From Chryseobacterium sp. LJ668 (lineage in GTDB: Bacteria; Bacteroidota; Bacteroidia; Flavobacteriales; Weeksellaceae): a stretch of DNA of 64,000 nucleotides. Of this stretch, positions 40,097 to 41,799 are shown piece after piece. How positions within the stretch are numbered: the stretch's first letter is position 1; each line of letters opens with the position of its first letter. Both the position numbers and the translations under genes were made by a program. The notes below the pieces were generated by a model that saw only the letters and a program-made list of their open reading frames with translations, did not search any database and was not told where the DNA came from. The DNA is taken from the NCBI RefSeq assembly GCF_019613955.1, contig NZ_CP080443.1, positions 3,209,001 through 3,273,000 of the forward strand. The letters are read 5' to 3'.

Positions 40097-41799
40097 TTAT
40101 GTCAAATCAAACTTCATTAAATCATCAAGATCTTTCAACAAAGGATTAATTTCAACAAATTTTTCAAATTTTTTCTTAGTGGTTAATATTTCCTGTCTGA
40201 GATTTTGAGGCTCGTGTTTAAATTCAAATACAATTGAATGGTTATTTACCTTATGTTTAAAATGATTGAAAAACTCGGTACTGATTTTATCAAATTCTAA
40301 TTTTGCAGAGCCAGACGGATATTGAATCTGTATAATTTTTTCGTCGATCTTTTTTAATTTAAAAGATTTTATAGCGCTGAAAATAACCGGATCTTTTGTC
40401 CGAAGATGTAAGAGAAGAAGATTCCATTCTGACTGAACATCTGTATCTGTAAAATGATGCTCGTGCAGATCTTCATTTTTTGCAATGACGGCATCTTCAA
40501 CTTTTGGAGTATCTTCATTGTTCATTAAAGAACTGATGTTGATCCCGGACGAAACTTTCGATTTTGAAAGAGGTTTTGAGGATGTTTTTATAGTAATATC
40601 CGCAGGAGGTTCTTCTGTGATCTGAGGTTTTATAAGTACTTCTTCTTTCTTTCCTTCAATAATTTTTGAAGGCAATTTTATTTCCGGTTTCTCATGCAGA
40701 AATGGAGCTGATATTATAAACTTTTTTTTTTAGCCGTATCTCCAACGTTTGTAAGTGAAGCTAACTGCATCAAAGCAATTTCTACGGTAAGCCTCGGATT
40801 TTTAGAATTTTTATAATTGATATCCGCATGATTGCAAATCTCAATTCCGTCAATTAATTGCTGAGCATTCCAATTCTTTGCCTGTTCTACAAATTTAATT
40901 TTCGTTTGCTCACCGACTTCAATTAAATCAATCGTTGAAGCATTTTGCGCCATCATCAAATCTCTAAAATGATTTCCTAAACCGGCAATAAAAATATGCG
41001 GATCAAAACCCTTTTTTACAATTTCGTTAAATGCAAAAAGAACTTCAGGAATTTTGTTTTCTTTTGTAAAATCAACGATTTTAAGATACTGATCGTAGTC
41101 CAAGATATTGAGTACTTCAGCAGCTTTTGCAAGCGTAATATTTTTTTGTGAAAACGTTGACAGTCTGTCAAAAATTGAAAGTGCATCTCTCAATGCTCCA
41201 TCAGCTTTTTGTGCGATTAAATATAAAGCATCATCTTCATATTTAATATTTTCTTTTTCGGCAATCTCTTTCAGATGCTCCTGAATATCAAGAATAGTAA
41301 TTCTCTTAAAATCATAAATCTGACAACGAGATAAGATGGTAGGAATAATTTTATGCTTCTCTGTTGTAGCTAAAATAAAAATGGCATGAGCCGGCGGTTC
41401 TTCCAAAGTTTTAAGAAAAGCATTGAAAGCAGCAGAAGAAAGCATGTGCACCTCGTCAATGATATACACTTTATACTGACCAACCTGAGGCGCAAAACGC
41501 ACCTGATCAATCAATTCCCGAATATCATCAACAGAGTTATTGGATGCAGCATCCAATTCATAAATATTATAGGCAAATCCGTCTTCAGAAACTGAACCGT
41601 CTTTTTCGTTAATCTTCCTTGCTAAAATTCTCGCACAAGTTGTCTTACCAACCCCACGTGGACCGCAGAAAAGAAGAGCCTGTGCCAACTGATTTTCTTC
41701 GATCGCATGCTCTAAAGTATCTGTAATATGAGATTGCCCAACTACAGCATTAAACTGTTTCGGACGGTATTTTCTTGCAGATACTATAAAGTTTTCCAT
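40097..41799 (-). CDS. dnaX: DNA polymerase III subunit gamma/tau, read through a -1 slippery site
   Basis: In frame 0 the gene runs from the ATG at 41799 to a TAA at 40714 and gives 361 residues: the AAA+ clamp loader with Walker A GPRGVGKTT, DEVHMLS, SRC motif ILSRCQ and domain III. An A10 run at 40722-40731 is followed at once by the stop. A -1 shift there continues with no stop to 40097, adding the C-terminal domain (about 567 residues in all). The frame-0 product is thus gamma-like and the shifted one tau. The cysteines of the usual zinc module are absent, as in other flavobacteria. A sequencing error in the run is the main alternative. Confidence 0.9.
40722..40731 (-). promoter_or_regulatory. 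Ten-A slippery site in dnaX
   Basis: On the coding strand GCT is followed by A10 then GTTTATAA. GGAG lies eight bases upstream of the run, like the internal Shine-Dalgarno that stimulates E. coli dnaX shifting. About 20 bases downstream a weak 5-bp hairpin TTTCT/AGAAA can form. Both ribosomal -1 shifting and polymerase slippage would restore the long frame. Confidence 0.6.

Follow-up and report, generated by a model that had tools for sequence, protein, structure and literature searches.

The sections on dnaX in two published accounts (PMC3711429 and PMC5009743) describe Escherichia coli dnaX as a gene that relies on a −1 ribosomal frameshift with an internal Shine-Dalgarno (SD) sequence and a stem-loop. 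In Thermus thermophilus, the parts of the literature that deal with dnaX describe transcriptional slippage at a run of nine A's (PMC5009743, PMC1088944). According to the dnaX portion of Antonov et al. (2013; PMC3711429), 17 dnaX genes from 12 genera need recoding to yield tau, nine of them having 10 A's; transcriptional realignment was proposed there for the split dnaX genes, and none of the 17 frameshifts had been annotated. The slippage sections of a 2016 review (PMC5009743) further describe a Roseiflexus insertion sequence (IS) in which a stem-loop in the nascent RNA beside the slip motif stimulates slippage by RNA polymerase, state that at efficiencies near 50% the roles can be swapped by one nucleotide change, and note that the role of gamma was disputed for a long time.

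The window, meaning the whole 64,000-nucleotide stretch of Chryseobacterium sp. LJ668 analyzed here, carries a dnaX gene with a run of ten A's (A10) at the gamma/tau boundary (Table 1). Frame 0 extends from an ATG at 41799 to GCT AAA AAA AAA AGT TTA TAA and encodes a gamma protein of 361 aa (40.8 kDa) with the C-terminal end ...GDTAKKKSL. One full codon lies between A10 and the TAA in frame 0, and nine lie between A10 and the TGA in the +1 frame. The −1 frame reads AAA AAA AAA AAG TTT ATA ATA ... and is open down to a stop at 40099-40097, giving a predicted tau of 567 aa (64.6 kDa). In profile searches, gamma aligned with positions 1 to 372 of the 614 positions of NF011531 and also matched NCBI dnaX_nterm, and the tail aligned with positions 429 to 613 (E value, 1e−9). 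The original prediction, made from the letters of this region, had called the gene dnaX, which is borne out by the clamp-loader ATPase, lid, and domain III matches and by TIGR02397 and NF011531. Rereading both frames returned the short gamma in frame 0 and the long tau that it had described, the latter after a net −1 shift, with products of 361 and 567 aa and in an order reversed relative to E. coli, since the templated A10 gives gamma. Its placement of the gamma/tau boundary after domain III agrees with the domain matches, and its long open −1 frame with a C-terminal domain is found as 207 codons ending at 40097 with a match to the tau C terminus.

Table 1. Features of the dnaX region, in window positions
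Feature	Positions	Strand	Support or remark
dnaX frame 0, gamma, 361 aa (AAA+ ATPase, lid, domain III)	40714..41799	−	PF13177, PF22608, PF12169; TIGR02397, 387 bits
A10, putative slippage run, AAA AAA AAA + A in frame 0	40722..40731	−	T10 on the + strand
TAA ending gamma in frame 0, starting five bases after A10	40714..40716	−	
TGA closing the third (+1) frame, 9 codons past A10	40692..40694	−	
Tau tail, 207 codons + stop, reached by one added A or a ribosomal −1 shift	40097..40720	−	
GGAG, 8 bases 5′ of A10	40740..40743	−	Judged no required part (not conserved in genus)
Weak stem TTTCT/AGAAA, ∼16 to 19 nt past A10	40688..40702	−	Stronger in some congeners; unsupported as stimulator

A dnaX gene was found in all 173 Chryseobacterium genomes of the genus set, of which 172 loci were classified and 171 were readable past the run. 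Comparison with these genes, along the lines of a check proposed in the original prediction, revealed A9 to A12 at the same place in dnaX in 173 of 173 genomes and a closed frame 0 in every one of the 171 readable loci. Among the 172 classified loci, the run was A10 in 122, A11 in 45, A9 in 4, and A12 in 1; the locus outside this group (L237) had A10 followed by GTTTATAA. Production of tau required exactly one extra A in 164/172 loci and the opposite shift in four (L239, L289, L322, and L325), the long frame was absent in three (L088, L342, and L343), and L105 terminated at the run. The +1 frame was closed 7 to 9 codons past the run in 157/172 loci. The synonymous codon AAG never interrupted the run, the shortest of which was 9 bases, and accounted for 298 of the 1,269 Lys codons in the gamma genes counted. 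Across the 3.47-Mb genome, 18 distinct A/T runs of ≥10 were present, whereas a first-order Markov model built from the window predicted ∼347; this scarcity, together with the universal A9 to A12 in dnaX of the genus, places A10 beyond chance. Elsewhere in the same genome, an A11 (G000:C1:970670-970680; L349, ORF 1163-2143) lies inside a 326-aa open reading frame (ORF) that is open through the run. This ORF starts MKRFQLLIIFLTIISCSE..., appears lipoprotein-like by eye, and could possibly contain another slippage site.

The wider set consisted of 167 loci, 80 kept from a first search and 87 from a phylum sample (20 of the latter from outside the class); wider locus L005 and genus locus L233 are one and the same record. 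Runs of A9 to A11 were identified in 141 loci (A10, n = 115; A9, n = 16; A11, n = 10), with A7 or A8 in 3 and no run in 23, and were carried by 8/20 loci from outside the class compared with 133/147 of the others. The tau frame of the 141 loci with a run was frame 0 in 86 (tau-first), −1 in 51 (gamma-first), and +1 in 4. Both non-tau frames met a stop within 6 codons past the run in 122/141 loci, compared with 14.0% of 47,250 control codon positions from the same genes, although these loci are kin and such counts are not independent trials; the figure was 115/133 when the 20 loci from outside the class were set aside, and 19 of the 141 lacked closure of both frames inside this distance. Taken by frame, the 86 tau-first loci were closed within 6 codons 84 times in the −1 frame and 75 times in the +1 frame (controls, 38.7% and 34.3%), and the 51 gamma-first loci 46 and 51 times, respectively (controls, 47.6% and 38.7%). 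The closing stops occur in dissimilar sequence across distant families. On a gamma-protein tree (FastTree; 168 proteins, with long branches flagged), no fewer than 18 switches from tau-first to another layout or back were required, strongly supported branches by themselves force 11 for the tau-first label, and two Aquimarina loci (L008 and L012) differ in being tau-first or gamma-first. The original prediction had counted relatives with a continuous frame as evidence against recoding. Such relatives do exist outside the genus (86/141), but they keep the run and the near stops in their other frames, and they therefore swap the roles of the two products rather than refute recoding.

A later draw, of one genome per family, covered 50 family codes that the earlier phylum sample lacked, with overlap with records of the first search possible, and gave 49 matches. 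From the best 30 of the 49 by likeness to the L079 query, which were read as loci, the run was found in 24, A7 in 2, and no run in 4. Both other frames were closed within 6 codons in 21/24, and tau was in frame 0, −1, or +1 in 17, 5, and 2 loci, respectively; in L421, which is one of the two +1 loci, the frame reaches the end of the contig. Within the wider set, loci L040, L060, L061, L067, L076, L163, L166, and L173 have a single long dnaX frame without an A run of ≥7 at the site, as do 11 of the 20 loci from outside the class (among L305 to L318). The Bacteroidales locus L066, which also lacks an A run, has an open stretch of 266 codons that overlaps the end of gamma in another frame, an apparent break that may be real or an error.

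Many families have an RNA hairpin whose end lies 0 to 3 nt 5′ of the run. The hairpin of Flavobacterium is CTCTATCA-NNNN-TGATGGAG followed directly by A10, that of Rufibacter (L050) is GACCTCTCTG...GGAGAGGTC followed by A10, and those of other families were unlike either in sequence among the loci listed. Using 66 representatives at <80% identity and a threshold of −6 kcal/mol, hairpins were predicted in 26/66, compared with 13.5% of 1,650 control positions (p = 4e−8), and the mean energy peaked at the run and returned to background level within ∼8 nt. Of the 24 loci with a run from the later draw, 9 had such a hairpin compared with 10.2% of 600 controls (p = 6e−7), with the peak placed likewise. 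The enrichment persisted at 35/90 when the controls were base-matched at the two preceding positions (12.6%; p = 4.5e−13) and when dinucleotide shuffles were used instead (19.4%; p = 2e−6). The hairpin is not universal, being weaker than −6 kcal/mol in 55 of the 90 wider representatives. Within the genus sample it reached the threshold in 8/58 loci compared with 7.9% of controls, and the mean energy was −3.85 compared with −2.45 kcal/mol for controls (p = 9e−7, by a rank test on close kin). No hairpin was predicted 5′ of A10 in the window (−1.5 kcal/mol). For the Flavobacteriaceae hairpin, covariation gave 10 double-change cells, a value reached by 0 of 300 column shuffles, but one slid version gave 11.

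The tail was assessed using 167 complete tails from the genus (204 to 210 codons). Median dN/dS was 0.129 (578 usable of 2,500 sampled pairs), compared with 0.055 for at most the last 80 codons of gamma (563 pairs), and variation at the three codon positions was 0.152, 0.110, and 0.347. Judged by these substitution patterns, the tail is coding and under purifying selection. Its predicted structure had a mean pLDDT of 73 and a pTM of 0.44, with residues 1 to 90 of low confidence and residues 91 to 170 forming a confident alpha/beta region. The last domain of tau has a fold like that of DnaA domain I and DciA. The solved folds nearest to the model were DnaA domain I (4tps; E value, 0.013) and the helicase loader DciA (8a3v; E value, 0.027), none reaching an E value of 0.001, and the best match of the tail profile to sequences of solved structures had an E value of 0.12. 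These weak fold matches are consistent with a replication-type domain.

Several explanations other than transcriptional slippage were considered. Homopolymers are error-prone, and a sequencing or assembly error concealing a single open dnaX frame could have produced the break. Some genus records probably do carry run-length errors: six of the seven loci with a missing long frame or an opposite shift are in assemblies of ≤3 contigs, which make up 52 of the 173 by hand count (hypergeometric p = 0.003), and on the basis of this enrichment L088, L239, L289, L322, L342, and L343, with runs about one A shorter than those of their kin, are likely to be such errors. The seventh, L325, comes from an assembly of ∼250 contigs. 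An error in the window itself is nevertheless scarcely credible, given that frame 0 is open through the run in none of the 171 readable loci, that near stops are present in the other frames, and that the same break occurs in Flavobacterium (L010 and L014 to L016), Myroides (L027), Flavicella (L011), and a member of the Cesiribacteraceae (L048). With A9 to A12 in all 173 genomes, this explanation was rejected for the genus. Only slightly less improbable is a split gene, in which gamma is accompanied by a separately translated tail or by the decaying tail of a pseudogene. A TTG at 40675 in the tail frame could serve the former, but before column 130 of the 242-column alignment no start codon is common to a majority of the 167 genus tails. 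The low dN/dS of the tail (0.13) and the continuity of gamma and tail in 86/141 wider loci with the run also argue against a separate or dead tail, and it was rejected on these grounds.

The strongest rival is a programmed −1 ribosomal frameshift at A_AAA_AAG inside the run, resembling that of E. coli with the products reversed. The shift needed has the right direction in 164/172 genus loci, A_AAA_AAA/G heptamers are found inside any A10, and A_AAA_AAG is contained in the A10G of the window; 28/172 genus loci have A11 and then T instead. Both tRNA-Lys genes found in the genome (18 of 59 tRNA matches scanned) read UUU, which favors ribosomal slipping as in E. coli, and some congeners have a downstream stem (10 to 11 of 29 sampled at −6 kcal/mol, from single end positions; mean z, −1.76 for the downstream fold in 35 sampled congeners). 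This stem is not general, however. It reached −6 kcal/mol in 10/66 representatives compared with 17.9% of controls (p = 0.95) and in 4/24 later loci compared with 12.0% (p = 0.62), and covariation in the genus stem (22 double-change cells compared with up to 78 in slid versions) was inseparable from protein constraint. In congeners it begins ∼12 to 16 nt past the run, and the spacing in E. coli dnaX is shorter than this. The original prediction had likened the GGAG to a stimulatory internal SD sequence, a proposal that fails in the genus, where SD-like tetramers occur within 20 nt upstream in just 23/172 loci; together with the lack of enrichment of the downstream stem, this led to rejection of E. 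coli-type stimulators. About seven A's are enough for a −1 ribosomal shift, which needs no stop in the +1 frame and usually has stimulators. The uninterrupted A9 to A11 is kept although 7 bases would suffice. Closure of the +1 frame, which exceeds chance even in tau-first loci (75/86 compared with 34%), is unnecessary for such a shift, and a −1 shift cannot reach tau where it is in the +1 frame (L024, L133, L439, and also L325). The E. coli-like ribosomal reading of the original prediction is thus the weaker one, and an unlikely one, because stops close both non-tau frames and lineages differ in the frame that holds tau while the homopolymer stays, a combination that points to slippage by RNA polymerase.

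Programmed transcriptional slippage is therefore the preferred account of how dnaX in the window makes both gamma and tau, with a probability of roughly 0.77. That recoding of some kind takes place at this gene appears nearly certain, and, granted recoding, a transcriptional event is considerably more probable than a ribosomal one. The length of A10 equals that of the 9- to 10-bp RNA-DNA hybrid within RNA polymerase, so that the enzyme could hold an all-rA:dT hybrid on the run and slip, which would yield dnaX mRNAs with differing numbers of A's. Transcripts that keep the templated 10 A's (or have 13) would be read normally to the TAA and give gamma, those with 11 (or 8) A's would give tau with its C-terminal tail, and those with 9 or 12 A's would meet a stop after ∼9 codons, yielding a further gamma-like protein. 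As two of the three frames would give gamma and one tau, the mixed mRNA pool could set the ratio without any ribosomal signal. We infer slippage, its efficiency, and the product ratio from the anatomy, conservation, coding tail, and frame closure seen in the sequences. The missing upstream hairpin in the window, given its presence elsewhere, counts against slippage. Across most of the relatives examined, as in this bacterium, slippage by RNA polymerase at a stretch of some ten A's is the probable means by which a single dnaX gene yields both a short and a long product.

A different arrangement was found in two Bacteroidales loci without the run (L068 and L079), in which gamma ends at a TAG and the tau tail continues in the same frame. 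L449 denotes the dnaX locus of the L079 genome (example site, L449:2206-2277, minus strand). A search of this genome and 40 relatives found a match in 38/41, and exactly one TAG was present in 22 of the 39 matches listed. Of the loci read (L068 and L449 to L471), 23/24 had gamma, the TAG, and a further 186 to 254 codons; L471 did not. The three tails tested from this lineage matched the tau C terminus. The codon after the TAG was ATT or ATA (16 and 7 loci, respectively) and never ATC, though ATC accounts for 55% of Ile codons elsewhere in the genes, followed by GCA in 22/23 (16% of Ala codons) and AGA or AGG in 23/23 (10.8% of Arg codons), while the bases 5′ of the TAG varied. A 1,272-codon frame with the rpoB domain PF00562 contained no TAG (one gene from one genome), and no CTA anticodon was identified in 21 scanned tRNA loci of 41 matches from one genome of the lineage; TAG is thus probably not generally a sense codon there. 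A small hairpin 3′ of the TAG was modestly enriched (12/23 at ≤−4 compared with 30.7%; p = 0.002), and RNAalifold predicted no pairs in the TAG region. Searching with two mismatches allowed returned matches to the TAG signal in 78 of 395 class genomes, which appear chance-like, as all those listed had one or two mismatches. The plain reading of the conserved TAG is a candidate programmed stop-codon readthrough; reinitiation at the ATT or ATA is a further candidate.

On a broader reading, to which even odds may be given, dnaX of Bacteroidia would be indifferent to frame. A10 of hybrid length and stops in two frames would be selected, often primed by a hairpin of the nascent RNA directly before the run, RNA polymerase would set the gamma:tau ratio, indels would swap the templated product, and one Bacteroidales lineage without the run would use readthrough at UAG AUW GCA AGR instead. 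Retention of the switch through at least 18 inferred frame swaps, and the other form of recoding seemingly used in one lineage, says that gamma and tau are both under selection in Bacteroidia. These genes could serve as natural cassettes for hairpin-stimulated slippage by RNA polymerase, and the layouts suggest that many Bacteroidota dnaX genes are annotated as gamma and an orphan ORF.

The layout in the window was already known, since a 2013 paper had reported that tau is made by recoding at a run of 10 A's. In titles and abstracts of the open literature, nothing nearer was found on dnaX recoding in Bacteroidetes or Flavobacterium, and the upstream hairpin, the frame indifference of Bacteroidia, and the in-frame TAG of Bacteroidales were not found; how widely the A-run layout occurs, and the RNA hairpin that accompanies it in many relatives, appear to be new. 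As far as the dnaX portion of Antonov et al. describes them, the split genes resemble the window in having two ORFs, a frame 0 that ends soon past the run, and a −1 relation in the DNA, and the 17 may include kin of the window. That set of 17 genes from 12 genera compares with 173/173 genomes of one genus and 141/167 wider loci here, and the present survey adds to what that portion reports loci with tau in frame 0, −1, or +1 and, in many families, a hairpin adjacent to the run on its 5′ side. The Roseiflexus IS, in the review's account, has a hairpin 5′-adjacent to its slip site, an arrangement shared by many Bacteroidia dnaX genes though not by the window; the IS slip site is a heteropolymer (T5C5) that allows only a one-base deletion, whereas that of dnaX here is A10. 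E. coli dnaX, as summarized in the sections cited, shares with the window a single gene for gamma and tau and an A-rich slip site, but in the window the products are reversed, no conserved SD sequence or general downstream stem accompanies the site, and the run is a homopolymer of 9 to 12 A's. The Thermus gene, in the published parts that treat it, has an A homopolymer at the gamma/tau boundary and near stops in both non-tau frames, as does the window, and differs in that its templated length is A9 and gives tau, whereas the templated A10 of the window gives gamma. A gene that works like that of Thermus but is laid out in reverse, as in Antonov et al., fits the window better than the E. coli type.
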